Shown one piece after another: positions 19,227 to 33,767 of a stretch of DNA of 47,030 nucleotides. Within the stretch, counting starts at the first letter, position 1, and the number at the start of each line of letters is the position of its first letter. The notes below the pieces were generated by a model that searched no databases, was not told the DNA's origin, and saw only the letters and a list, made by a program, of their open reading frames with translations. The DNA is from Sulfurimonas sp. (GTDB lineage: Bacteria; Campylobacterota; Campylobacteria; Campylobacterales; Sulfurimonadaceae): positions 1-47,030 of the forward strand of contig DAIDMU010000017.1 in assembly GCA_027448805.1 (NCBI GenBank), given 5' to 3'. The position numbers and the translations under genes are program-made.

Positions 19227-21200
19227 TTATAGTTTTTTATATTTTGCTATTTCATCACGAAGGCGGGCTGCCTCTTCAAAGTTTAGTTCACGAGCCGCAT
19301 CTTTCATTTTTATGGAGAGCTGCGTTATTATCGCTTTTCTCTCTGAAGCCGGTATTTTATCCATTTTTTTATGCTTTTGGTAAATGTTGCCGTAATCCTC
19401 TACTTTGAGATTTTCATCCAGTTTGCGGATTGTAGTAGTCGGGGTGATGTTATGCTCTTTATTGTATCTCTCCTGCATCTCTCTTCTTGCGTTGGTTATG
19501 TCAATCGCCCTTTGCATTGAGCCTGTAATCTTATTTGCGTACAAAATTACTCTACCGCTTGAGTTTCTGGCCCCTCTGCCTATTGTCTGGATAAGAGCTG
19601 TTTCGCTTCTTAAAAATCCCTCTTTGTCGGCATCTAAAATAGCCACAAGGCTCACTTCTGGCAAATCAAGCCCTTCACGTAGGAGGTTTATCCCGATTAA
19701 GACATCAAACTCGCCTTGGCGGAGCGAGCGGATAATCTGATTTCTCTCTATGGTGTCTATGTCAGAGTGCATGTACTCTACTTTTATCCCCAAATCGGCC
19801 AGATATTTTGTGAGTGCTTCTGCCATTTTTTTTGTTAGAACGGTTATGAGAACTCGCTCATTTTTGGCTGTTACTCTTTTTATCTCATCGTGAATATCTT
19901 CGACTTGATTTGTAGATGGTTTTACTTCTAAAATCGGGTCAAGAAGTCCGGTAGGTCGGATAATCTGTTTTGCTATGACGCTTGAGAGTTCAAGTTCGTA
20001 AATAGATGGCGTTGCAGAGACAAAAAGGTAGTGAGGAGCCTTGTGTATGTACTCATCTAGCATCAGCGGTCTGTTGTCCAAAGCACTCGGCAGACGAAAA
20101 CCGTACTCCACCAAGACCTCTTTTCTAGCTCGATCACCTGCGTACATCCCGCGGTATTGAGGAAGTGAAACGTGTGATTCGTCAACAATAACCAGATACT
20201 CTTTATGGTGTAGTTCAAAGTAGTCAAGCAGAGTATATGGAGCTTCTCCCGGTTTTTTGTTTGTGAGAAGCCTTGAATAGTTCTCTACACCTTTGCACAT
20301 TCCCGTCGTTTGAAGCATTTCAAGGTCGAACTCTACCCTCTGTTTAAGACGCTGATACTCGACAAGTTTGCCCTCTTTTTGGAAGTATGCAAGTCTCTCG
20401 TCAAGCTCCTCCTCTATGCGTTTTATGGCAACAGCCATCTTCTCCTGGCTTACGCTAAACTGCGAGGTTGCGTAGATGGTAAACTTTTTATGCTCTTCAA
20501 GCTTCTTGTTGTCTATGATATCGAAGGTGTAGATGGCCTCAATCTCGTCACCGAAAAACTCTATGCGGATGGCTTCTTGCTCAAAGTAGGGCGGATAGAT
20601 ATCCAAACTCTCGCCGTTTACACGAATATGGCCGCTGTCGAAGTAGGTATCGTTGCGGCTGTAACCCATCTCTACAAGACGAAGCAGAAGTTTTTTTTGC
20701 GCTATCGTATCTCCGAGAGCAACTGATTGCACCATGTTTTCATACTCCTGCGGGTCACCCAAGCCGTAGTTTGCAGAGACCGAAGCCACGACGATAACAT
20801 CATCGTATGAGAGCAGATTTGCGGTAGAGGAGAGGCGAAGACGCTCTAATTCGTCGTTGATGGCGCTGTCTTTTTCAATAAAGAGGTCTTGTCTTGGGAT
20901 GTACGCTTCAGGCTGATAGTAGTCATAATAGCTCACAAAATACTCTACATGGTTATTTGGAAAAAATTGGCGAAACTCGCTGTAGAGCTGAGCCGCAAGA
21001 GTTTTGTTGTGCGTCATGATGATTGTGGGCATCTGCACTTTTTCTATTACGCTTGCCATCGTGTAGGTTTTGCCGCTTCCAGTCACACCCTCTAGGGCTT
21101 GGTAACGGTTCCCTTTTAGGATGGAATCGCTTATAGTTTCAATGGCTGTTGGCTGGTCGCCGGCCGGAGAATAATCTGATTTTACTTTAAATTTTGACAT
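19227..21200 (-). CDS. uvrB: Excinuclease ABC subunit B
   Basis: DNA-damage-loading helicase-like subunit of nucleotide excision repair. It shows Walker A in [13 protein letters not shown], the beta-hairpin [15 protein letters not shown], the DEAD-like [19 protein letters not shown], helicase motif [11 protein letters not shown], and a C-terminal UVR domain ([24 protein letters not shown]) for UvrA/UvrC contact. It has 657 residues from the ATG at 21200; the track start two codons upstream is a TTG. The ATG sits 5 bases after a TATAAT, implying a leaderless message. Confidence 0.97.
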
Positions 21201-21205
21201 GCGCA

Positions 21206-21211
21206 ATTATA
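21206..21211 (-). promoter_or_regulatory. -10 box immediately upstream of uvrB
   Basis: On the minus strand TATAATTGCGCATG: five bases separate the -10 box from the ATG, which therefore coincides with the expected transcription start. Confidence 0.6.
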
Positions 21212-21416: not shown

Positions 21417-22853
21417 ATGAAAACACTTTTCAAATTTATACTAGCTCCACTTACAGCTTTGCTCTTAACGGCGTGTGCAGGTCCGCTTCATACGGCTGCA
21501 CATAATAATGATTTAAATGAAATAAGTAAATTGTTGAATCAAGGTGCAGATGTAAATGGTATTAGCCTTGGCGCGACTCCGTTATGGAATGCAGCTTGGA
21601 GAGGAAATATAGAGGCGGCTAAATTACTTATAGAGCGTGGAGCACGTGTAGAAAGCATGCATTTATGGGGAGCGGCAGTTGGGACAGATAATGAAGAGAT
21701 GGCTAGACTCTTGATTAAGAACGGTGCCGACCTTACTTTTGTATATGATGGAAAGAATGCGCTGGACTATGCAAAAGAGAGAAATCACATGAAGATTTAT
21801 CATGGAATCATCAAAGCCTTGCAAGATAAGGAACAGGCCAAACGAGATGCTCAAGCTGCTGCACTGGCAGAGCAAAAGAGACAAGCTCAATTGCGCGAAG
21901 CAGAAACAATCAACTCATTAATCGCCCAAAATGATATAGCGGGTTTAATAGCGTATGTAGAACTTCACCCAGAGTCTCTGGCTTCTATACAAAATTTACG
22001 GGTTCGTTTGCTCATTACAGGTCCGGCAGAACTGCGCATTGTCGATATTTTACAGCAGATACAAAACAAAAGAAATGAATCCATTATTATTGCTAGAATA
22101 AAAGGAACAACAGGAGCATATAAAAATTTCAATGACAATGAATTAAACGAACTAATTGCAATGGGAATCTCAGATGAAATCATAGCAGCCATGATAACGG
22201 TAACCAATGAATACCAAAAAGAGAAAAAACGCCTTGCACATCAGCAGGCTCTTTTAACAGAGCAACAAAAGGCGGCGGATGAAAAAGTACGCCAAGCTAA
22301 ACAGAGAGAAGAGGAGCAGAGGATTCGCCAGCAACAAGCAGCCGCTAAATCTAATGAGTTTCAGTGGGGAAAAGCGACTGCACTCTTAGGCGGCTCAATG
22401 ATTGGAGGACTAGGTAATCTCTCATCAGAGGCACAAACACAGGTTTTTACAGGAATATTGCAAGACAGCATGGGTGGACAAGAAGGGGTTAGCAATCTTG
22501 CAGCTGTAACAAATAGCCAAACGTCTACCAATGAGCCAGTCGGAGGTTATAATAATGTACAAACTCCAGTTTTAGCTACTCAAGCATCAAGAAGCGACGA
22601 GAGCTTGTGGCATGATGATTACTCAAATACTGTGACTAAAACAGGCGAGACAAAATCATATCCGAATCACGAAAGGAATATTCCCGGCAGTTATATTGTG
22701 AAAGTGAAAGACAGAGCCAGTGCGGAAGCTGTCTGGTCAAATCAGGGTGGCAAAGTCATAGATTATTACGGCAGTATTGATAGCGGCAAGATAACTGTAA
22801 TTGTAGATTTTGGATATATTAAGGATACTCACGTTTACTTAAGAGATAAGTAA
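21417..22853 (+). CDS. Ankyrin-repeat lipoprotein with coiled-coil region
   Basis: A 478-residue protein of unknown role. The signal peptide and lipobox (LLLTAC, Cys20) predict lipid anchoring. Residues about 25-140 form ankyrin repeats (HTAAHNNDLNEISKLLNQGADVN, TPLWNAAWRGNIEAAKLLIERGA, GAAVGTDNEEMARLLIKNGAD, then a degenerate YAKERNHMKIYHGIIKAL). Two Gln/Ala/Arg-rich coiled coils flank a middle domain (SLIAQNDIAGLIAYVELHPESL). A Gly/Ser-rich part leads to a C-terminal beta domain (GSYIVKVKDRASAEAVWSNQGGKVIDYYG). It precedes a second lipoprotein by 98 bases. Likely a periplasmic scaffold; inferred only. Confidence 0.8.
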   Translation: MKTLFKFILAPLTALLLTACAGPLHTAAHNNDLNEISKLLNQGADVNGISLGATPLWNAAWRGNIEAAKLLIERGARVESMHLWGAAVGTDNEEMARLLIKNGADLTFVYDGKNALDYAKERNHMKIYHGIIKALQDKEQAKRDAQAAALAEQKRQAQLREAETINSLIAQNDIAGLIAYVELHPESLASIQNLRVRLLITGPAELRIVDILQQIQNKRNESIIIARIKGTTGAYKNFNDNELNELIAMGISDEIIAAMITVTNEYQKEKKRLAHQQALLTEQQKAADEKVRQAKQREEEQRIRQQQAAAKSNEFQWGKATALLGGSMIGGLGNLSSEAQTQVFTGILQDSMGGQEGVSNLAAVTNSQTSTNEPVGGYNNVQTPVLATQASRSDESLWHDDYSNTVTKTGETKSYPNHERNIPGSYIVKVKDRASAEAVWSNQGGKVIDYYGSIDSGKITVIVDFGYIKDTHVYLRDK

Positions 22854-22951
22854 TCGGTTAGAATATTGTGGTATTAGAGGCTCCAAATTAACTGCCTCTA
22901 CGTTGCCCAATTAAAAAATATTATTGTGAGAGTTTTTAAAAAAGGATTTTA

Positions 22952-24226
22952 GTGAAAAAAATTTTATTGGTGGGCTCTATATCTAGATTTCAAAAAATTA
23001 AATCTGCTGTTGCTCTTGTGATGCTGCTTCTGATTATGCAGGGGTGTGGTGCAACAGTTTATAGAGGTGTTACGCCGGCAGAGGCTGACGTTATCGTTAC
23101 CAACATGGCAGGCACTGCTAAGCCGACAGATGTCACATTGGCAAAATATTACCAGGAGCAGCAAAAATATATCAGCTGGAGAGGTACTTGGAACTGCAAT
23201 AACCAATTGGTCAAAGTAATCTTAATAAATCAGGTTCTCACACCTGGCAATGGAAATTTTGTTTATGGCCAGCGCTCCTCGGTTGGAGATAGCAGATGCA
23301 CAGCTATTGAGACTTATGACATGGCGGGCCGATACGATAAAAACTATCTCTACCTTTATATTCGTGGTGTGGAGCAAACATTTATAGAAAAATATGCGAT
23401 TAACAAAAAAGCCTATTGGGCAGACGAAATGCAGGTGGTAGAGGGTGCGCTTGTTTTTCTTGGCCAATATAAATATATCGATGACGTTTGGAGTTTTCAT
23501 AAAGCTAAAGCCAACCCGCTGTATGGGGTAAGTGGTCAAAAAATCCCAGAGAGTGGAGGATGGGCAGATATGTGGGAATCCAGCGAATTTGCACCCAAGA
23601 GAGAGGATCCAAGAGTGAGTGCTGAGGAGCGCAGACTGGCAATTTTAGCCAAGGAAAGCAAAAAAGTTGGCGAACTTGCCGCTGAAATTGCCGCAAGAGA
23701 AGCTGAAGATGATGCGGATCAAAGAGCAGCCGATAAAGCTGCAAATGCTCAGGCTTTAAGTGCAGTAATGCAAAAACTTGCTGCAGATAATGCATATCTT
23801 CAGGCTGAGTCTGCAAAAGCAATGCAGCAAAATCTTTATAGATCAGAGACGAATGAGCGAAGCGGACAACAAAATAGCCAAATCACTCAATCAAATGCTA
23901 CTGCTAGGAGTTCTGCTACTACTCAGAGAATAACCACAGATCCAAATCCATACGAACGTGATCTTAAATGGTCACAGGCAGGTTTTAGCGTAAGCTATAA
24001 AACACGACAAGAGGCGTGCAAAGATGCCGAATCTCTGGCTGATTCTTTTGTTTCTAAGCTTCAACCTGTAGAACACCCGGGTATTCTTACAGGAGTATCT
24101 CCATGCGTATGTTTCGATAATTTTACAGTGTATAGAAAAATTGATGATGGAACAATAACATGCCGCGTATATATCAAGACGGAAAATCCTAAGCAATCAG
24201 GACCATCTAACAATATATCTAGATAA
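22952..24226 (+). CDS. Large lipoprotein of unknown function
   Basis: I do not recognise the family. The 424-residue product has a long n-region, a hydrophobic stretch and a lipobox ending in Cys32 (LIMQGC). The N-terminal domain (about 33-200) contains ISWRGTWNCNNQLVKVILINQV and repeated aromatic residues, suggesting a beta-rich fold. A coiled-coil, Ala/Glu/Asp-rich middle (EIAAREAEDDADQRAADKAANAQALSAVM) resembles that of the preceding lipoprotein. The C-terminal ~90 residues are rich in Cys (about four), with SVSYKTRQEACKDAESLADSF. GTG start with AAAGGA. Probably co-expressed with the ankyrin lipoprotein. Confidence 0.75.
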   Translation: MKKILLVGSISRFQKIKSAVALVMLLLIMQGCGATVYRGVTPAEADVIVTNMAGTAKPTDVTLAKYYQEQQKYISWRGTWNCNNQLVKVILINQVLTPGNGNFVYGQRSSVGDSRCTAIETYDMAGRYDKNYLYLYIRGVEQTFIEKYAINKKAYWADEMQVVEGALVFLGQYKYIDDVWSFHKAKANPLYGVSGQKIPESGGWADMWESSEFAPKREDPRVSAEERRLAILAKESKKVGELAAEIAAREAEDDADQRAADKAANAQALSAVMQKLAADNAYLQAESAKAMQQNLYRSETNERSGQQNSQITQSNATARSSATTQRITTDPNPYERDLKWSQAGFSVSYKTRQEACKDAESLADSFVSKLQPVEHPGILTGVSPCVCFDNFTVYRKIDDGTITCRVYIKTENPKQSGPSNNISR

Positions 24227-24230
24227 TTAA

Positions 24231-24953
24231 TCAGTCAATAATAGCATTATGCCATTGAACGAGAGTCAGTCTATATCCATTTTCTACATGTAAAACTTCA
24301 TGGCTGTATATCGGGTTGCTTGGAAAAACAATCATATCTCCAGCCTGAGGGTAGAGTTTGATCTGTTTGCCGTCTGCATCAAAGAGATAATTAAAAATTA
24401 GTTCTCCCCCGCTAAAGCTATGGGCATCAGAACTGCACTTCTCATGAGAAGTCGTAAAAAGTACGGTTGTAAGTTTGCGTCTAGGCGCTACTTGTATAAA
24501 ACCTACTGTTTTGCCCCCTGCATCCACCAGCTCATTTGAGTCATCGGAATGTTTAGTGTAGAATGAACCTTTTGTATACTCCAGTGCCTGCAGTGTTGTT
24601 GATGTAGTGAGTGCAACGCTAAAGAAGCACTCAATCTCTGCCTGAAAAGTTTTAAAATTCTCATCGTACATTCTTACATGTAGATTTGATAGTTTATGAA
24701 TAACGGTTTTTCTGATGCTCTCATTAACACTGGGGTCTACGATACTGCCAAGAAGCCTTGTTTTTACTTTAGCTTTTTCGCCCTCCGAGGTATTGTAGGC
24801 ATAGTTAGAAATATCATCACATGTAGATTTTGAGAAAAAATCCCTGATTATAAGATATGGATAGTCATAGTATGGGTTTGCCATAAGCCGTGTTTCAAGC
24901 TTGAGAGAGGCGATAAAATCATCGCAAAACACGTGGTTGCTTATCTGTTGCAT
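24231..24953 (-). CDS. 2-oxoglutarate/Fe(II)-dependent oxygenase (prolyl-4-hydroxylase-like)
   Basis: Predicted non-haem iron hydroxylase. From the ATG at 24953 (240 residues) it shows the facial triad His135-x-Asp137 (YTKHSDDS) and His218 (YSHEVLHVENGYR), plus Arg228 (GYRLTLVQW) for the 2-oxoglutarate carboxylate. FSGGELIFN and LYPQAGDMIVFPSN between them are typical of the P4H-type jelly roll. The 26 extra N-terminal residues in the track are out-of-frame radical SAM sequence. It is the last gene of the exporter operon, starting one base after the stop of the radical SAM gene. The substrate is unknown; a peptide or protein side chain is plausible. Confidence 0.85.
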   Translation of the reverse strand: MQQISNHVFCDDFIASLKLETRLMANPYYDYPYLIIRDFFSKSTCDDISNYAYNTSEGEKAKVKTRLLGSIVDPSVNESIRKTVIHKLSNLHVRMYDENFKTFQAEIECFFSVALTTSTTLQALEYTKGSFYTKHSDDSNELVDAGGKTVGFIQVAPRRKLTTVLFTTSHEKCSSDAHSFSGGELIFNYLFDADGKQIKLYPQAGDMIVFPSNPIYSHEVLHVENGYRLTLVQWHNAIID

Positions 24954-24954
24954 T

Positions 24955-25830
24955 TTAACCCTTTGTAAATTTATCTTTATAGCTGCATTTTTTGCAAAGC
25001 TCTTCAACAGCCTTGAAATTTTTAAAACCATCTATCATATCTTTGGCTCTTTTAGCATTCAGTATCTCTTCAAGCGAGCTTTTATGCAGATTGCCGAGGT
25101 TTATAACTCCCTCTCCGTCTAGGCAGCAAGGCACAACAACACCGTTAGCAAGTATGCCGATGTGAGATTTTAAACCGTAACATGTTCCCTCACTGTTGTG
25201 CGAAGAGGCTAGAGACGGCCACTCAAAGTAGCTATCAAAATTTAGCAGCACTTTTGAAGCCAAGCGTATTGATTTTATTTTTTCTCTATATATTTTATCT
25301 TCATCAAGAGCAGTGTTAAAAAATGAGTCCAATCTTTCGAAAAGAAGCCTATTATACCCAGCTTCACTGTATATGTCATCAAGATTCCAAAGACGGAGAT
25401 TTACAAAAGGTTTTTGATAGTGTTCCAGCTTTTGCGAACAGATATTTAAAACAGCGTCGATATACTCCTCAAAGCTCATATTCAGGCTGTTTTTGTTGAA
25501 GCTGTTTAGAGAGATGTTGAGCTGGCGGACTGCTCTGTGAAAGAGTATTTGGGCTTTAGTTTTACCAAGGTAGTAACCGCTTGTCGTAAGCTCGACTTCA
25601 AACCCGTATTTATCTGCAATATCAAGATACTCCTCAAGATTTGAGAGCGTTAGAGGATCGCCCATCACATGGAAAGCAAGAGTTTTTGTGTATGGCTGAA
25701 GTTGTATGAGCACCTCTTCAAAAAAAGTGAGTGACATGCTTTTTGAAGGATTTGTTTTTGGAGGGCAGAAGCTGCAGGCAAGACCGCAGATATTGGTTAC
25801 CTCGATGTGAACACGGTTAAACTGCACCAT
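24955..25830 (-). CDS. Radical SAM/SPASM domain protein
   Basis: Predicted radical SAM enzyme of 291 residues. The 4Fe-4S/SAM motif is Cys15, Cys19 and Cys22 (NICGLACSFCPP). A partial TIM barrel follows (LAFHVMGDPLTL, VELTTSGYYLG). The C-terminal SPASM-type region has Cys217, Cys235, Cys236, Cys279 and Cys282 (GVVVPCCLDGEG, LCKKCSYKDKF), enough for one or two auxiliary clusters. SPASM proteins commonly modify peptides, though some act on sugars or cofactors. Its ATG overlaps the stop of the MacB-type permease by one base (TAATG), implying translational coupling to the export system. Confidence 0.88.
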   Translation of the reverse strand: MVQFNRVHIEVTNICGLACSFCPPKTNPSKSMSLTFFEEVLIQLQPYTKTLAFHVMGDPLTLSNLEEYLDIADKYGFEVELTTSGYYLGKTKAQILFHRAVRQLNISLNSFNKNSLNMSFEEYIDAVLNICSQKLEHYQKPFVNLRLWNLDDIYSEAGYNRLLFERLDSFFNTALDEDKIYREKIKSIRLASKVLLNFDSYFEWPSLASSHNSEGTCYGLKSHIGILANGVVVPCCLDGEGVINLGNLHKSSLEEILNAKRAKDMIDGFKNFKAVEELCKKCSYKDKFTKG

Positions 25831-27038
25831 TATTCGTATCTTAGCGCATCTATGGGATTCATGTTAGCCGCTTTTCGTGCCGGAATAATTCCAAAAATAA
25901 TGCCGATTAGCATAGAAAATATTAGAGCGATTATGGTGATAAAAGGATCGATTATCATGATAATATCAAGCCCTTTAGTCACTCCGTAAGTGATTCCTAT
26001 GCCGGTAATTACACCTAATATTCCCCCGATTCCAGAGAGCACGGTGGCTTCGATAATAAATTGTATCAAAATGTCTTTTGGCATCGCTCCAATCGCCATT
26101 CTTATGCCAATCTCCCTTGTGCGCTCCGTGACGGAAACAAGCATGATGTTCATAATTCCTATCCCTCCAACGACCAGCGAGATAGCCGCTACCGCTCCGA
26201 GCATAACAGTAAGCATAGATGTGACCTCTTCAAGCGTGTCTAAAAGAGAGGTCATGCTGTGTATTCTAAAATTGTCCTCTTCATTTGCTTTTAGATGTCT
26301 TCGCTCTCTAAGAAGCTGCCCAATCTGTGATTTTGCCTGCTCAAGAGGAAAATTTTCTTTTACGGATGCTGCAATCATGGAGACATTTCTATTGCCTGCA
26401 ATACGACGTTGGAATGTTTTTATAGGCAAAATAACAACATCATCCTGATCTCTTCCAAAAGCATTTGCTCCTTTTTCTTCAAGTACTCCAATGATTTCAC
26501 ATGTAAAATTTTTTATCCTTATCTTATTACCCACGGCTGAGACATTTTTGCCAAAAAGATTTTCAACTGCAGTTTTTCCCAAAATACATACATTTTTTCC
26601 GGTTCTGATTTCATCTTTTTCAAAAAAACTCCCATCTTTAAGAGCCCAGTTTTGTACGGTAAAGTAGTCATTACTGGCTCCTGTGATGCTTGTTTGATAA
26701 TTTTTGTCTTTATATAGCACTGTCATAGTAGCACTCGCAATAGGGCTAACTGCTTCTAGCGTGAAGATAGCAGACTTAAGCACATCAACATCTCTAAGAG
26801 TAAATGGGACAGATACGTGAGCTTCTCCCGGTCCATGTCTTTGCCCTTGGAGTATATGAAGAGTGTTGCTTCCCAGACGGCTCACGCTCTGCGTAATTGA
26901 CTGGCTTGCCCCCTGACCGATATTAACCATCGCTATAACGGAAGCTATGCCTATAACTATGCCGATTGCTGTAAGTACTGAGCGCATCATATTTCTACGA
27001 ATCTCTCGCAGAGCCTGCAAAAAGGCGCTAAGCAACAT
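25830..27038 (-). CDS. MacB-type ABC transporter permease
   Basis: Inner-membrane mechanotransmission permease of the FtsX/MacB family, 402 residues. The N-terminal helix is MRSVLTAIGIVIGIASVIAMVNIGQGAS, a large periplasmic MacB_PCD domain follows (about 50-260), and three C-terminal helices include VAAISLVVGGIGIMNIMLVSVTERTREIGIRMAIGA. Unlike E. coli MacB, the ATPase is a separate gene directly upstream, with an 11-base overlap. With the adaptor and outer-membrane channel genes it forms a tripartite exporter that moves periplasmic substrates outward. Confidence 0.92.
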   Translation of the reverse strand: MLLSAFLQALREIRRNMMRSVLTAIGIVIGIASVIAMVNIGQGASQSITQSVSRLGSNTLHILQGQRHGPGEAHVSVPFTLRDVDVLKSAIFTLEAVSPIASATMTVLYKDKNYQTSITGASNDYFTVQNWALKDGSFFEKDEIRTGKNVCILGKTAVENLFGKNVSAVGNKIRIKNFTCEIIGVLEEKGANAFGRDQDDVVILPIKTFQRRIAGNRNVSMIAASVKENFPLEQAKSQIGQLLRERRHLKANEEDNFRIHSMTSLLDTLEEVTSMLTVMLGAVAAISLVVGGIGIMNIMLVSVTERTREIGIRMAIGAMPKDILIQFIIEATVLSGIGGILGVITGIGITYGVTKGLDIIMIIDPFITIIALIFSMLIGIIFGIIPARKAANMNPIDALRYE

Positions 27039-27708
27039 GATTAAAATCCTTTTCTATAACACCGTCGCGGATATAGATGGTTCTTGAGGCATAAGCTGCA
27101 ATATTCTCTTCATGCGTAACCATTATGATTGTAATCCCTTGGCGGTTAAAATCAGTAAGAAGTTCCATTATCTCTTCCCCGCGCTTGGTGTCAAGATTTC
27201 CTGTGGGCTCATCAGCGATTAAAATTTTCGGTGCTGTTACAATAGCTCTGGCAATGGCAACCCGCTGCTGTTGTCCGCCTGAGAGTTGGCTTGGCTCATA
27301 GTTTAGATGTGACTCAAGCCCGACGCTTTTAAGTGCTTTGCAGGCTCTCTCCCTTCGCTCTTTTGCCTTTACTCCCTGATAGATAAGAGGCATCTCTACA
27401 TTTTCTAAAGCAGATGTTTTCTTTGATAAATTAAACCCTTGAAAAACAAAGCCTAAAATATTGCGTCTAAATAGTGCACGCTGCTCTTTTGATAACAGTC
27501 TCATGTCGGTGCTAAAAAAGTCATAGCTGCCTTCGCTTGGAATATCAAGCGCTCCCAAAATATTTAACAGAGTGGATTTTCCGCTTCCGCTAGGTCCCAT
27601 TATGGCAACAAACTCGCCATCTTTTATCTCTAGGTTTACTCCTTTTAAAACACGGGTTTCAGCCTCTTTGCTCCCATATGTTTTAGAAATATTTTCTAGG
27701 CGAATCAC
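27028..27708 (-). CDS. MacB/LolD-type ABC transporter ATPase
   Basis: Cytoplasmic ATPase of the exporter, 226 residues. Walker A is GPSGSGKST (residues 38-46), the Q-loop FVFQGFNLSKK, the signature LSGGQQQRVAIARA, Walker B ILIADEPTGNLD, and the H-loop IIMVTHEE. These are characteristic of the MacB/LolD/FtsE clan. It overlaps the adaptor gene by 4 bases and the permease gene by 11. Confidence 0.94.
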   Translation of the reverse strand: MIRLENISKTYGSKEAETRVLKGVNLEIKDGEFVAIMGPSGSGKSTLLNILGALDIPSEGSYDFFSTDMRLLSKEQRALFRRNILGFVFQGFNLSKKTSALENVEMPLIYQGVKAKERRERACKALKSVGLESHLNYEPSQLSGGQQQRVAIARAIVTAPKILIADEPTGNLDTKRGEEIMELLTDFNRQGITIIMVTHEENIAAYASRTIYIRDGVIEKDFNHVA

Positions 27709-28916
27709 TGCTTCTTTTCCTGAGCAAGAATAATTAAATCATCAACTTTAAGCTCTTCGGAAGCAATAGCTACATCAGAGCCATTGCTTCCTACTATCTT
27801 GACATAGACCTTCTTTGCCGCTCCATTTTTTAAAATCCAAATATGCGGTTTTTGATCAATTATGCTCTGCTTCTTAGAGTCAAACAGCGCCAAACCTTTT
27901 TTCTCTTTGGTTTCGACAGGAGTATAGATAAGTGCGGCTCTTGAGATTATAAAACTATCTTTTATGGTATCCGTTGTGATATCGGCATCAATGCTCATTC
28001 CAGGTTTTAGCAACAAATCTTTATTGTCAACATCCATCATTGCGGTGTATGTTACCACTCCGTCTTGAATCTCAGAGTTAACGCGAACTTTTTTGATTGT
28101 AGCTTTAAAAATAGTTTCAGGATAAGCATCAACACTAAAAGTCGCACTTTGACCTGTTTTTATCCTTGCTATATCTGCTTCGTCAATACTTACCTGCAAC
28201 TCCATTTTGCTTAAATCTTTGGCAATGGTGAAGAGTACCGGAGTTTGAAATGAAGCGGCGACTGTTTGACCGGGGTCTATTTTGCGCACCAGAATAATCC
28301 CATCGATAGGCGAATATATAACAGTTTTTTCAAGATCATAGTTTGCTGACACAAGCGTATGTTTGGCTTGATTAACCTGCGCTATCGCACTTGATACCTG
28401 TGATTTTGCCGCTAGAAAATCTGCCCAATCGCTATCCCAATCTTTTTGCGACGGAAGAACGCCTTTGGTTGAATTTTTTAGTGTTTTATCCCTTTCAATA
28501 ATTGCTTCTGTCTTATAAAGCTGCGCTTTCGCATTTTCCAAAGATGCTTCTGCCGAGGTCAAAGAGGCACTTGCCTTATTAACAATACTTTGGTATTTTG
28601 TTTTGTCCAGTCTTGCAAGCGGCTGCCCTTTTTTTACCAAATCGTTATAATCAATATAGACCTCTTTGATTGTCCCTGAGACCTCTGTTCCGACATCAAC
28701 ACTCTCTAAAGGCTGAACATAGCCGGTAGAGAAAATCGTAAGAACAAGGTCCCCTTTTTTTAGAGGCAGTGTAATATATTGAAAATCGCCTTTTTTCTCT
28801 TGCCCAAGAAAAAATAGATAAGCCCCAGCTCCAAGCAACAGGATAAATAACGAGATACCGACTTTGTATTTCCAAGTATTGCTTTTATATGATGTGATTT
28901 TTTGCATCTCTTGCAT
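27705..28916 (-). CDS. MacA-like periplasmic adaptor (HlyD/RND-type membrane fusion protein)
   Basis: Bridges the inner-membrane transporter and the outer-membrane channel; 403 residues. One N-terminal membrane helix (about 19-38, VGISLFILLLGAGAYLFFLG), then a lipoyl half-motif (VDVGTEVSGTIKEVYIDYNDLVKKGQPLARLD), a helical hairpin (ASASLTSAEASLENAKAQLYKTEAII), the second lipoyl half (IYSPIDGIILVRKIDPGQTVAA), and beta-barrel and membrane-proximal domains. This is the canonical MacA/HlyD order. It starts 8 bases after the outer-membrane gene. Confidence 0.92.
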   Translation of the reverse strand: MQEMQKITSYKSNTWKYKVGISLFILLLGAGAYLFFLGQEKKGDFQYITLPLKKGDLVLTIFSTGYVQPLESVDVGTEVSGTIKEVYIDYNDLVKKGQPLARLDKTKYQSIVNKASASLTSAEASLENAKAQLYKTEAIIERDKTLKNSTKGVLPSQKDWDSDWADFLAAKSQVSSAIAQVNQAKHTLVSANYDLEKTVIYSPIDGIILVRKIDPGQTVAASFQTPVLFTIAKDLSKMELQVSIDEADIARIKTGQSATFSVDAYPETIFKATIKKVRVNSEIQDGVVTYTAMMDVDNKDLLLKPGMSIDADITTDTIKDSFIISRAALIYTPVETKEKKGLALFDSKKQSIIDQKPHIWILKNGAAKKVYVKIVGSNGSDVAIASEELKVDDLIILAQEKKQ

Positions 28917-28924
28917 CTGTTATC

Positions 28925-30100
28925 CTACTGTTTTGTATCGAAATGGAGTGAAATTTTCTCAATTAAAATGTTGTAAAACTGCATCTCTTTTTCTAGTTCT
29001 TGAATAGTAACCGAATTTTTTAGCGAATCAAGTTCATAAGAGGATTTCAAGCCGACATCTACCTGACTTTGGGTAAAAGTTTGAAGTTCGTTGTAAAGAC
29101 TGAGCATATCTTGAGCGACTACAATCTTCTCCTCATAATCTGAAATAGTAGCAAAACGCATCTCATACTCTTGCTCTAGCTCAAGTTTTCTATCTATCTG
29201 CGTTAATCTTGTCTCTAACAGCTGCAATCGCTCAGACTCTATTGCTGATTTTGCGTTTATATCAAGAGGCATGCTTATCATCGCACCGTAACGGTAGTTT
29301 TCTCCATCACGCTCAACTATATCGCCGCTGCTTTGCGTATAGCCATAAGACGCATTAAGAGCAAGTTTAGGCAAATATGAAGATTGTGTAACCTTGCATA
29401 GGGCACTCTGGCTCTTATCTTGGGCTTGATACTTTAAGAGTTCAAGGTGCTGTTTTAGATATTCAGATTTAGAAATTAGCGCAATATCAGGAAGTATAAT
29501 CGTTTCAATTTTTTTATATCCGGCCAATTTTTTAAGTTCATGCTGCTCATTGCGAAGAAGATTTTTTGCTGCAATAAGTTCAGTTTTGGCATGGTCTCTG
29601 TCGATTGTGGCACGATTTAACTCGCTGATATCCGTACTGCCTGCTTTGTATTTTGCCTTGATAATAAAGAGGTCTATATCTCTATTTTTGAGCACAAGCT
29701 CACTCTGTTCATATTTTAAAGTGTCGCGTTTTATCTGTGATGCTAAAGTGTAGATTTTTTTTAGATAATTTGCCTCTTGGATATCTATACTCAGCATATT
29801 TGCCTGACCAGAGGCCTCTGCTTTTTCTATAGTGTAAAATATTCCGCCGCTTCTAAAAACATCCTGATTCCAGTTAATGGCCGCATTTTTTGTCTGAATC
29901 TCACTATATTCTGCATTCTTGTTGTTGTTGAGTGAGGCTGAAAATATCAACGGCGAAATCCAGCTGTTTTTCTCAACATCAACATCCTCTGCATTTTTTT
30001 GCCGTTTTAGTTTTAAAATTTCGATTTTCTCTTCAGAGAGCGGCAGACTATCGCCAAATGCCAACACTAGAGAGATAAGTATGTAAAATATTTTTTTCAC
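28925..30100 (-). CDS. TolC-family outer-membrane efflux protein
   Basis: Forms the exit duct of the tripartite exporter; 391 residues. The short signal peptide is MKKIFYILISLVLAFG. The rest is mostly long amphipathic helices, with the family-like segment YLPKLALNASYGYTQSSGD about two-thirds through and paired repeats around RDIDLFIIKAKYKAGSTDISELNRA and FTQSQVDVGLKSSYELDSLKNS. The start is GTG at 30100 with a good AGGAG 8 bases upstream. First gene of the six-gene minus-strand operon. Confidence 0.88.
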   Translation of the reverse strand: MKKIFYILISLVLAFGDSLPLSEEKIEILKLKRQKNAEDVDVEKNSWISPLIFSASLNNNKNAEYSEIQTKNAAINWNQDVFRSGGIFYTIEKAEASGQANMLSIDIQEANYLKKIYTLASQIKRDTLKYEQSELVLKNRDIDLFIIKAKYKAGSTDISELNRATIDRDHAKTELIAAKNLLRNEQHELKKLAGYKKIETIILPDIALISKSEYLKQHLELLKYQAQDKSQSALCKVTQSSYLPKLALNASYGYTQSSGDIVERDGENYRYGAMISMPLDINAKSAIESERLQLLETRLTQIDRKLELEQEYEMRFATISDYEEKIVVAQDMLSLYNELQTFTQSQVDVGLKSSYELDSLKNSVTIQELEKEMQFYNILIEKISLHFDTKQ

Positions 30101-30234
30101 GAAGCGAACTCCTATCTATAGCAGTATACATTTATTTTGCTCAAAAATATTTTACAACAATTTACATGTAAGAAATAAATAAAGCCAAACTTAAAACAAT
30201 AACGTAATTAAAAAGTGATAAGAAAGATAAAAGT

Positions 30235-30261
30235 TAAATCGGATAAAATTACTCCGATTTA
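30235..30261 (+). promoter_or_regulatory. Hairpin/operator in the divergent spacer before the small secreted peptide
   Basis: TAAATCGGA (30235-30243) pairs perfectly with TCCGATTTA (30253-30261) around a 9-base AT loop. It lies 42 bases upstream of the small peptide gene and 134 bases upstream of the TolC-like gene, so it could be an RNA hairpin in a leader or an operator for either gene. Confidence 0.5.
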
Positions 30262-30302
30262 AAAATTTAGAGCGTAACGCGTTCTTACCAAAGGAAACCA
30301 AA

Positions 30303-30434
30303 ATGAAAAACATCATTTTATTAATCGCATTGACATTAGGTGCTCTCCAAGCCGACAATATAGTACATTATGATACTAAAGAGACACAAGCTCCAATAAG
30401 TAAGCCTAACCACCCTACTTCAGATATTTATTAA
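30303..30434 (+). CDS. 43-aa small secreted peptide
   Basis: Too short for the ORF track. ATG at 30303 follows AAAGGAAACC, a strong ribosome binding site at normal spacing. The product begins MKNIILLIALTLGALQA, a clear signal peptide, leaving a mature peptide of about 26 residues, DNIVHYDTKETQ... ending HPTSDIY, with no cysteine. A perfect hairpin follows the stop. It diverges from the TolC-MacAB-radical SAM-oxygenase operon and could be a substrate of it or an unrelated small periplasmic protein. Coding status rests on the ribosome binding site and signal peptide. Confidence 0.65.
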   Translation: MKNIILLIALTLGALQADNIVHYDTKETQAPISKPNHPTSDIY

Positions 30435-30509: not shown

Positions 30510-31295
30510 CTAAACCTTTTTCTTAACAAAATAAACAATTACAATAGATATGACAGATAAACATAACATTAAGAGTGCAACATCCGCTGTTCCCGCGGTG
30601 CCGTCTGCAAACGGCAGGCCGCTTGTATTCATACCGAAAAAACCTACAACCAAATTTAATGGTAGAAACACCGCAGAGATAATGGTAAGCGTATAGATTG
30701 AGTGGTTCATCTTCTCGTTTGTAAGGGCACTATAAAATTTGTAAATATAATCCAACTTAGAGAGTTGCAGCGTAGCTGATCTTAATGTTCTCTCCATATG
30801 CTCATGCAAATCTATATAGTGATTTATAGGAAAATTATTACTCTTTTCATAATATTCAATTGCTATGTTCATTGTAGAAGAGGCATGCATCAATATTCTT
30901 TCAATTCTCACAATATTATGTTTGAGTTTTAGCCACTGTTTCATAAAAGAACTTTTTGTTTTATTCGCATATAGAGCCTCCTCCATATCTACAATCAGGT
31001 CATGATACTCTTCAAATGATTTTATCAACTCATCAATCATGCCATCCAAAATGTTATAAGGAGTCTCAAAGCGGTTGCCTAGCTTCTTAAATTCATCCTT
31101 CTCTCTTTCGTATAGATAACTGTTATCAGATGTAATAATAAATCCGACGGAGTGCACTTCCAGCTCTTCATGAATTACAGGCAGCCTGATTATTAACATG
31201 TCATACTGCTCATTTTCATCAAATATTGACGGATGCGCTTCATTTCGTAAATCATCTAAGTGAAGGTTGTCAACTAGTTTATGAATATTAACCAT
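30510..31295 (-). CDS. CorA family divalent cation transporter (short form)
   Basis: Inner-membrane channel for Mg2+ and related ions. The pore signature GMN is present (VVGFFGMNTSGLPF) between two C-terminal helices (IYTLTIISAVFLPLNLVVGFFG and VALLMLCLSVISIVIVYFV). The long stalk helix with basic residues precedes them, and the C-terminus KKKV is basic as in CorA. At 261 residues it is shorter than the usual 310-350; the N-terminal cytoplasmic alpha/beta domain is reduced. AAGGAG ribosome binding site. It follows the M42 peptidase by 41 bases, apparently the last gene of the RimK operon. Confidence 0.88.
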   Translation of the reverse strand: MVNIHKLVDNLHLDDLRNEAHPSIFDENEQYDMLIIRLPVIHEELEVHSVGFIITSDNSYLYEREKDEFKKLGNRFETPYNILDGMIDELIKSFEEYHDLIVDMEEALYANKTKSSFMKQWLKLKHNIVRIERILMHASSTMNIAIEYYEKSNNFPINHYIDLHEHMERTLRSATLQLSKLDYIYKFYSALTNEKMNHSIYTLTIISAVFLPLNLVVGFFGMNTSGLPFADGTAGTADVALLMLCLSVISIVIVYFVKKKV

Positions 31296-31336: not shown

Positions 31337-32374
31337 TCACTTTATATATATTTTTTTTAAAACAGTAATCATGCTTTCAACCGCTTTTTTAGTTGTTGTT
31401 TCATGCACTGTATGATACCCAATTGTCGGTATCTGCAGAGTAGTTCCCTGAATCTCGCCTTTTGATGCGTGGATAAGTCTTCCGAGCTCGGTTGTGCCGA
31501 GTGATACTCTATGACCGTTTCTGAGCATTTTATCTTTCAAATAAGTGTCTTTAAAATTGTATTTTATCTTCTCTTTTGCAGCTATTTTTTTTATTTTATC
31601 TTTTAGAGGTGATCTGAAGACGGCATTTGAATCCCTATGTCTAAGAACTATGTCAATGTTTCTAATCTCTTCAAGGCTTGGGTAAGGGCTTGTGTCAAGA
31701 ACAAGCAACTCGTCTGTTTTGATATTGAATCGTTTGAACCACTCCAGCAAAAATCTCCAGCTTCTTCCAGCCTCTTCAGAAGCGGTAAAAAAGGCTGTTC
31801 CTTGGTATCCTATGGCGTATATGTAGATAATAATCGCTATGCTGATTACATTATCGAGCTGTGCAGATATCAAATCATCTTTAATCTCAAGTTTGTCGGT
31901 AAAAGCTATCGGCATTCCGGGAAAGAGATAATCAAAACCGTCTATTTTAAAAATAATATTATTTCTTCTTTCGCATAAAAAGGCATCTTTGATTGAGCCA
32001 AGCCCCAGATATGTTCCGGACCACGGCTGATATGCTTGAACTTTTTCATCAACAAATCTGGCGGTAAAGTTGTGCAACAGCTGTTCCGAGCTTGAATCAC
32101 CGGTTAAGTCTGCCTTGTTTTTAGCAATAAACGCCGCATATTGAAATTCGTTGTGGCCCGTGCAGATAAGCCCGTGTCTATCGGCGTGTGCGGAGATATA
32201 GCCGTCCTCAGGGCTGTTTCCTTTTGCTACAAGCACACCGTCATAATATTCAACTGTTACGCCGAGCTCCTCAAGCTCTCTTTTGATAAACATGAAAAAC
32301 GGGTGCTCAGCACCGACTACGCTCGGTATTCGGATAAGTTGTTTTAATATATCGTAAAATAGCTCCATATTCAC
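31337..32374 (-). CDS. M42-family (glutamyl aminopeptidase-like) metallopeptidase
   Basis: Predicted cytoplasmic di-zinc aminopeptidase, 345 residues. Ligand motifs are visible in order: His63-x-Asp65 (SAHADRHGL), bridging Asp174 (SAQLDNVISI), catalytic Glu200-Glu201 (TASEEAGRS), Asp227 (VLDTSPYP) and a late His (GYHTVHETT). This matches M42/M20 clan enzymes, of which M42 members include glutamyl aminopeptidases. The GTG at 32374 has GGAGC about 8 bases upstream; ATG at codon 3 is an alternative. It begins 5 bases after rimK, suggesting a role in trimming glutamate-containing peptides. Confidence 0.83.
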   Translation of the reverse strand: MNMELFYDILKQLIRIPSVVGAEHPFFMFIKRELEELGVTVEYYDGVLVAKGNSPEDGYISAHADRHGLICTGHNEFQYAAFIAKNKADLTGDSSSEQLLHNFTARFVDEKVQAYQPWSGTYLGLGSIKDAFLCERRNNIIFKIDGFDYLFPGMPIAFTDKLEIKDDLISAQLDNVISIAIIIYIYAIGYQGTAFFTASEEAGRSWRFLLEWFKRFNIKTDELLVLDTSPYPSLEEIRNIDIVLRHRDSNAVFRSPLKDKIKKIAAKEKIKYNFKDTYLKDKMLRNGHRVSLGTTELGRLIHASKGEIQGTTLQIPTIGYHTVHETTTKKAVESMITVLKKIYIK

Positions 32375-32379
32375 TTTTT

Positions 32380-33312
32380 TTAAGCTCCAATACTATCTTT
32401 TTTTATTTTTCTTTTCTTTTGGTTTACTTCTGATTTTGGAGATACATTTTTTGCAATATAGTCCATTATTTTTCCGGCAATATCAATTTTTGTTGATTTT
32501 TCAATCCCTTCCAAGCCTGGTGAGGAGTTTACTTCCATTACCAGCGGTCCTCTGGCCGATTGAATCATATCAACCCCGCAAACTCCAAGACCCATCGCCT
32601 TTGCAGCGGCAAGTGCGGTTGCTTTCTCTTTTCTTGTAAGTTTATGAGCAGTGGCACTTCCGCCCTGATGCAGGTTAGATCTAAAATCACCCTCGGCACC
32701 CTGTCTCTTCATAGCACCTACTATCTCTCCACCAACAATCAAAACTCTAATATCGGCTCCGCCTGCTTCTTCAATGTACTCCTGAACAAGCAGGTTGACA
32801 TCCATTCCATAGAACGCGTCAAGCACAGATTTGGCAGCTTTTTCACTGTCAACCAAAACAACGCCGACACCTTGAGTTCCTTCAAGTATTTTAAGAACAA
32901 GAGGTGCGCCGCCGCTTAACTCTATGACATCTTTTGCGGTAGATTTATTTGAAGCAAAAACAGTTTTTGGCATATCAACGCCGTTTTTAGACAATATCTG
33001 GAGGCTTCTGAGCTTGTCTCTGCTTCTTGCAATTGCTAAGTTTCCTGATGTGGAAAAGGCAGACATCATTTCAAAATGTCTTACCATCGCGGTTCCGTAA
33101 AAGGTTCTGCTTGCCCCTATCCTTGGGATAATTGCATCCGGAGCAGGCAGCTCTTTGCCTAAATAGTTTACCTTAAGCTCGTTTTTCATTATCTCAATAC
33201 TGCATTTTAAATAATCAATTACTCTAACTTCCCAGCCCCTTTTTTCAGCCGCCTCGACTAGTCTTTTAGTAGAATACAACTCTTTATTTCTTGATAATAC
33301 GTAAACTCTCAT
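32380..33312 (-). CDS. rimK: RimK-type ATP-grasp glutamate ligase
   Basis: ATP-grasp enzyme that in E. coli adds glutamates to the C-terminus of ribosomal protein S6 and makes poly-alpha-glutamate. At 310 residues it has the N-terminal pre-ATP-grasp domain (PAPDAIIPRIGASRTFYGTAMVRHFE), then LKILEGTQGVGVVLVDS, LVQEYIEEAGGADIRVLIVGG, RSNLHQGGSA and the metal site MEVNSSPGLEGIE, all specific to RimK. An extra basic tail (VNQKKRKIKKD) ends it. It overlaps the retropepsin gene by 4 bases (ATGA). Confidence 0.93.
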   Translation of the reverse strand: MRVYVLSRNKELYSTKRLVEAAEKRGWEVRVIDYLKCSIEIMKNELKVNYLGKELPAPDAIIPRIGASRTFYGTAMVRHFEMMSAFSTSGNLAIARSRDKLRSLQILSKNGVDMPKTVFASNKSTAKDVIELSGGAPLVLKILEGTQGVGVVLVDSEKAAKSVLDAFYGMDVNLLVQEYIEEAGGADIRVLIVGGEIVGAMKRQGAEGDFRSNLHQGGSATAHKLTRKEKATALAAAKAMGLGVCGVDMIQSARGPLVMEVNSSPGLEGIEKSTKIDIAGKIMDYIAKNVSPKSEVNQKKRKIKKDSIGA

Positions 33313-33767
33313 GATATCTCTTCTTTGTAGATTTTTTTTGTCAAAATTTGCTCTTTTGTAAGATATTTTTGTGAAACATCAACTAAAAATTTTTTTGCTA
33401 AAAATTTTCTTCCTATTAACATTGGATATTTCATATCTGAACGGTTGGTTAAGGATATGACGGTCATATAGTTTTTTCCAAAAAAATTAACTTTCACCCT
33501 GATTGACGGTCTATCTTGAATCTCTCCGTTTGAGCTTTTGATTTTTTTCATTTGATAAAGAGGCACTGCCATTTTTTTCCCATGATAAGCCGTGTGAACT
33601 TCATCTAAGAGTTTAAAATGAACAATGTTGTTTTCATCTACAAAAATATCATCACAATGCAGAGCATTCGTGTCTGCGCCGGTATCTACTTTTGCTTCTA
33701 AATCATAAAGTTGCAAATCGGGAATGGAAATAATCTCAATCGCCCCGATAATCTTCTTTTTTAGCAT
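33309..33767 (-). CDS. RimB-like retropepsin family protease (COG4067 type)
   Basis: A 152-residue member of the family long annotated as ATP-dependent zinc protease, now regarded as retropepsin-like aspartyl proteases. The active-site motif is Asp28-Thr-Gly-Ala (AKVDTGADTNALHC), and the flap/second loop includes RPSIRVKVNFFGKNY and MKYPMLIGRKFLAKKFLVDVS. In Pseudomonas a homologue, RimB, is encoded with RimK and opposes S6 glutamation. First gene of the four-gene minus-strand operon, with rimK overlapping it. The ribosome binding site is weak. Confidence 0.85.
   Translation of the reverse strand: MLKKKIIGAIEIISIPDLQLYDLEAKVDTGADTNALHCDDIFVDENNIVHFKLLDEVHTAYHGKKMAVPLYQMKKIKSSNGEIQDRPSIRVKVNFFGKNYMTVISLTNRSDMKYPMLIGRKFLAKKFLVDVSQKYLTKEQILTKKIYKEEIS

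Follow-up and report, generated by a model that had tools for sequence, protein, structure and literature searches.

A probable patchwork operon of an efflux pump, a Twitch-type radical-SAM enzyme and a 2OG-Fe(II) oxygenase in the variable corA-uvrB interval of Sulfurimonas

We analysed six tightly packed minus-strand genes in a window of 47,030 nucleotides (the whole stretch of DNA under study, part of a 1.86-Mb Sulfurimonas draft genome labelled G000). With a probability of roughly 0.7, the genes represent a patchwork operon in which three separately inherited modules met in the corA-uvrB interval, a slot of variable content, and not a conserved pathway. The first module is a full tripartite pump of the MacAB-TolC type, in which separate ATPase and permease proteins stand for MacB, the second a lone Twitch-type radical-SAM enzyme that is widespread in Campylobacterales, and the third a patchy prolyl-hydroxylase-like 2OG oxygenase. 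A shared transcript would reflect the landing place of these modules and not one conserved pathway. The kinds of gene at the locus are already known, and a patchwork of known enzyme kinds is the best reading.

Gene content and catalytic residues

The six genes (Table 1) are joined, in transcription order, by junctions of +8, -4, -11, -1 and +1 bases, and all six were assigned by Pfam, so that the gene families and the short overlaps and gaps given by the first-pass annotation were both confirmed. Judging by the spacing, they are probably transcribed together. Against the patchwork reading, translationally coupled junctions would co-express the genes even if their meeting was accidental. Structured RNA was searched for in the locus with Rfam, with no match. 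The slot also contains two lipoprotein-like ORFs (21417-24226, plus strand), of which one has ankyrin-like repeats by eye; neither matched a counterpart in other slots. Upstream of corA there is a conserved block (31337-33767, minus strand) of a RimK-like ATP-grasp ligase, a small protease-like ORF and an M42-like peptidase, all named by eye.

Table 1. Genes of the operon and borders of the variable slot
Feature	Coordinates	Strand	Evidence
TolC-family outer-membrane efflux protein, 391 aa, GTG start	28925..30100	-	PF02321 (OEP) 8.2e-23
MacA-like periplasmic adaptor, 403 aa	27705..28916	-	HlyD/MacA by Pfam; RND_mfp 151.5 bits, above cut-off
ABC ATPase of split MacB, 226 aa, GTG start	27028..27708	-	PF00005 (ABC_tran) 1.1e-33
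MacB-type permease, 402 aa	25830..27038	-	MacB_PCD PF12704 4e-49 + FtsX PF02687 7.5e-20
Radical-SAM enzyme, Twitch-type auxiliary-cluster domain, 291 aa	24955..25830	-	PF04055 3e-12 + PF13186 (SPASM) 1e-13
Prolyl-hydroxylase-like 2OG-Fe(II) oxygenase, 240 aa from conserved ATG	24231..24953	-	PF13640 (2OG-FeII_Oxy_3) 1.3e-11
corA-like gene, upstream border of variable slot	30510..31295	-	Border common to other Sulfurimonas genomes, incl. G012
uvrB, downstream border of variable slot	19227..21206	-	Border common to other Sulfurimonas genomes

The first four genes are an ordinary TolC/MacA/ATPase/permease efflux set with split MacB. As in MacAB-TolC systems, the adaptor, the permease with its periplasmic core and FtsX domains, the ATPase and the TolC-type protein lie in one operon, and the RND_mfp and OEP models both scored above cut-off. 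The set differs in that ATPase and permease are two proteins and in that the scores fall under the equivalog cut-offs for MacA (PRK11578, 156 bits for the adaptor) and E. coli-type MacB (PRK10535, 280 bits vs a cut-off of 966). The best NCBIfam model for the ATPase was DarD (254 bits vs a cut-off of 375), followed by MacB with 245 bits. The pump would couple ATP use to export through MacA and TolC, with a small periplasmic amphiphile as cargo.

In the radical-SAM protein, the CxxxCxxC motif at residues 15-19-22 and the series C217-x12-G230-x4-C235...C279-x2-C282 are invariant in 16 orthologues, and the catalytic residues, as read from the sequence, are intact. The full SPASM motif is CX9-15GX4C-gap-CX2CX5CX3C-gap-C, with seven cysteines and two auxiliary clusters, and Twitch is its truncated form with one auxiliary cluster (PMC6231123). 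The seven-cysteine motif is incomplete here, with only the CX12GX4C...CX2C part present; the earlier name radical SAM/SPASM stands as far as the Pfam SPASM model was matched, but the cysteines fit the shorter Twitch motif, and the best fold match is the Twitch enzyme BtrN. In this 291-aa protein the Pfam Radical_SAM match sets in at residue 9, which leaves no N-terminal space for a peptide-recognition (RRE) domain, and no RRE model of Pfam was matched. None of the NCBIfam equivalogs scored above cut-off for this protein.

By profile search, the closest solved relative was BtrN (6e-12, N-terminal ~105 residues only). In a fold search with the predicted structure (mean pLDDT 73), BtrN again came out best (2.5e-8), with the epipeptide epimerase EpeE second (2.9e-7), so the predicted fold leaves small-molecule and peptide substrates undecided. 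BtrN, a radical-SAM dehydrogenase, shares the design with one auxiliary cluster, but the identity in the structural alignment is 14% and a butirosin-type pathway is absent here; EpeE is likewise a short radical-SAM enzyme, but with 17-20% identity, and no precursor was found here. The N-terminal cluster of the protein would generate the 5'-deoxyadenosyl radical. The single auxiliary cluster would serve a redox-linked reaction of a dehydrogenation-like or epimerisation-like kind, whose substrate this locus does not encode. Our literature search revealed no paper on this radical-SAM family or on the six-gene set in Campylobacterota, and no function for the Twitch family. Cj1618c of Campylobacter jejuni is a candidate orthologue, as a lead and not as a claim; in the literature searched it is mentioned in one paper only, in an antisense-RNA table, listed with chuABCD.

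Although the reading frame of the oxygenase is open from 25031, its start is better placed at the conserved ATG at 24953, one base past the radical-SAM stop; in most relatives the oxygenase starts at the matching point or only a few codons away. Numbered from this ATG, H135, D137, H218 and R228 are invariant in 14 relatives, and by sequence the site composed of the Fe-binding HxD...H and the 2OG-binding Arg is intact. The 2OG-FeII_Oxy_3 domain with HxD...H...R resembles prolyl 4-hydroxylase and PKHD (YbiX-PiuC) proteins, but the scores with PKHD models are below cut-off and the PDB profile matches to P4H reach only 7e-4. The single-sequence fold of the oxygenase was discarded (pLDDT 35). The enzyme would hydroxylate a separate target.

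Slot variation and distribution of the modules

The content of the corA-uvrB interval changes within one Sulfurimonas clade. In the window it holds pump, radical-SAM enzyme and oxygenase, and in the closest relative, L212 (radical-SAM 90%, oxygenase 94%), the two enzymes without the pump. Five genomes (G021, G039, G046, G024 and G040; in G039 corA was not found upstream) have the radical-SAM gene without pump or oxygenase. Pump and radical-SAM gene occur together in L216, a stretch where corA and uvrB were not found and which has the usual neighbours of corA, the peptidase and small secreted-peptide genes. L217 contains both enzymes, 1 kb apart; G004 a pump from a separate lineage, ~20 codons left of the 3' end of the radical-SAM gene, and the oxygenase; G005 the oxygenase only; and G012 none of the three. 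The slot of close relatives thus holds nearly every combination of the parts, a caution that a pathway is not readable from the operon of one genome.

The pumps themselves are of different descent. The window TolC shows 66% identity to those of L216/L227 and 30% to that of the G004 slot pump, and the window MacA only 39-47% to the pumps of most other relatives. In the MacB tree, the window permease falls outside the main Sulfurimonas pump clade and groups with G074, a genome of another family, and the G004 pump lies within the main clade, indicating that two pumps entered the same slot independently. Ten orthologues of the window pump (MacA 55-61%) were found outside the slot, alone among unrelated genes such as ruvX, aroC and thrC (by eye), and four of the twelve genomes with a pump of the window lineage have no radical-SAM match.

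Across genomes, the three modules are distributed independently. Among 79 relatives, with the pump scored by MacA at E <= 1e-60, we found the radical-SAM gene in 29, the oxygenase in 13 and the pump in 21. In an order-wide sample of 259 Campylobacterales genomes, which overlaps the first in part, the numbers were 134 for the radical-SAM gene (39 of 74 genera) and 70 for the pump. A compact Twitch radical-SAM family, present in about half of the sampled Campylobacterales genomes without a constant neighbour, is a result of use in itself. In the first sample, 28 non-self radical-SAM loci were mapped; the pump adjoins none of them, and their immediate neighbours are unrelated (uvrA, mutY, moaC-like, lolC-like and deacetylase genes, named by eye). 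Further loci mapped in other lineages are likewise without an adjoining pump, with the exception of G220, which is the L216 genome. In two f9 genomes the radical-SAM gene is part of one shared operon, and it follows mutY directly in three f11 genomes.

The oxygenase is found in few genomes and almost always at other loci. Among the 79 relatives, only G000, G006, G048, G067 and G070 contain both enzymes, on different contigs except in G000. The functional coupling proposed by the first-pass annotation does not hold up well against these data: homologues of both enzymes mostly lie away from exporters, and the six-gene order was seen in the window genome only. The closest arrangements are one relative with five of the genes and a third genome, which has another pump lineage with a broken radical-SAM gene. 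A functional link of all six genes is unlikely.

Co-occurrence and alternative readings

The pump was present in 14 of 29 genomes with the radical-SAM gene vs 7 of 50 without it (79 genomes, Fisher p = 0.0014). When independent evolution was simulated on the uvrB tree, the p value was 0.008, which is suggestive only, being one of four pairings tested with a single-gene tree and a simple model. The union of both enzymes vs the pump gave 0.0004, a pairing chosen after seeing the data. Order-wide, 51 genomes contained both radical-SAM gene and pump, 83 the radical-SAM gene only, 19 the pump only and 106 neither (p = 4e-5, uncorrected for phylogeny), and within the family, previously unused genomes gave p = 0.08. 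The oxygenase showed no significant association with the pump or the radical-SAM gene, by Fisher test or by simulation. The pump lies directly upstream of the radical-SAM gene three times (the window, L216/G220, and G004 with its 3' remnant), and two pump lineages are involved. A functional link between radical-SAM enzyme and pump is possible, and their weak co-occurrence is a testable lead.

The earlier proposal, in which a possibly ribosomal peptide is modified and exported, fails for the most part by its own criteria, with the enzymes usually away from exporters and the order seen in one genome only, and features of such a pathway are missing, but it is kept weakly alive by the three adjacencies and the co-occurrence. 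In a non-ribosomal form, a small molecule or envelope component would be tailored for the pump by the radical-SAM enzyme, at times together with the oxygenase, the partners being usually unlinked and united in the slot. The recurrent adjacency with two pump lineages, the co-occurrence by genome and the role of BtrN in aminoglycoside (butirosin) biosynthesis are consistent with this, but 15 of the 29 radical-SAM genomes lack the pump at the threshold used, 7 of the 21 pump genomes lack the radical-SAM gene, the oxygenase is not significantly associated with either, and small-molecule biosynthetic genes were not recognised in the slot; we consider it unlikely. It is rather doubtful that the lone Twitch enzyme makes or tailors the cargo of MacAB-TolC-type pumps throughout Campylobacterales, with the Sulfurimonas operon and its hydroxylase exposing a normally unlinked partnership. 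That the two enzymes are passengers of a mobile element targeting the corA-uvrB interval is hardly credible: the presence/absence polymorphism of the slot, including G012 with none of the genes, would suit it, but integrase or transposase genes were not recognised in the slots, and outside this clade the radical-SAM gene is found at many unrelated places. A viral origin of either enzyme was dropped, as IMG/VR contained no relatives.

In our estimation it is very improbable that the two enzymes modify a ribosomal peptide which is then exported, along the lines of darobactin or epipeptide clusters. The nearest described plan is darobactin darABCDE, where a radical-SAM enzyme is paired with the DarBCD exporter (PMC9055067), and the window locus is like it in the split MacB-like exporter, the radical-SAM enzyme and the DarD-like ATPase. 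It differs in having no DarA-like precursor and an extra oxygenase and TolC, and the scores are below cut-off not only for DarD but also for DarC (27 vs 450 bits); DarE is not among the 25 NCBIfam models listed for the radical-SAM protein. EpeE, next after BtrN in the structure search, is also in favour of a peptide substrate, and Twitch enzymes of ribosomal peptide pathways exist, e.g. SkfB (PMC6231123). However, with gaps of at most 8 bases the operon has no space for a precursor gene, which together with the missing N-terminal peptide-recognition domain and the Twitch motif argues against this pathway. No precursor candidate was found in the operon and its flanks (ORFs listed upstream), though an unlinked one is still conceivable. 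Four features speak against the only conserved small ORF nearby (30303-30434) as precursor: its opposite orientation, a secretion signal (by eye), its presence in several copies in a genome and its absence from radical-SAM loci outside the slot.

A secreted-peptide gene family near the operon

The small ORF belongs to a 43-aa secreted-peptide gene at 30227-30434 on the plus strand MKNIILLIALTLGALQADNIVHYDTKETQAPISKPNHPTSDIY, with other copies at G000:C60:621-827 and G000:C115:18657-18860. Within the 79 genomes, this multicopy family was found in this genus only, in 24 genomes with up to 5 matches per genome. The gene has a leader of ~75 bases, without an Rfam match, that is conserved between copies, while the sequence upstream of the leader diverges. 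The leader contains the palindrome TAAATCGGAT...TCCGATTTA and a second hairpin, in which compensatory changes were found in 3 of 6 pairs. Strong-score copies of the leader in G000 were located only at the three copies of the 43-aa peptide gene.
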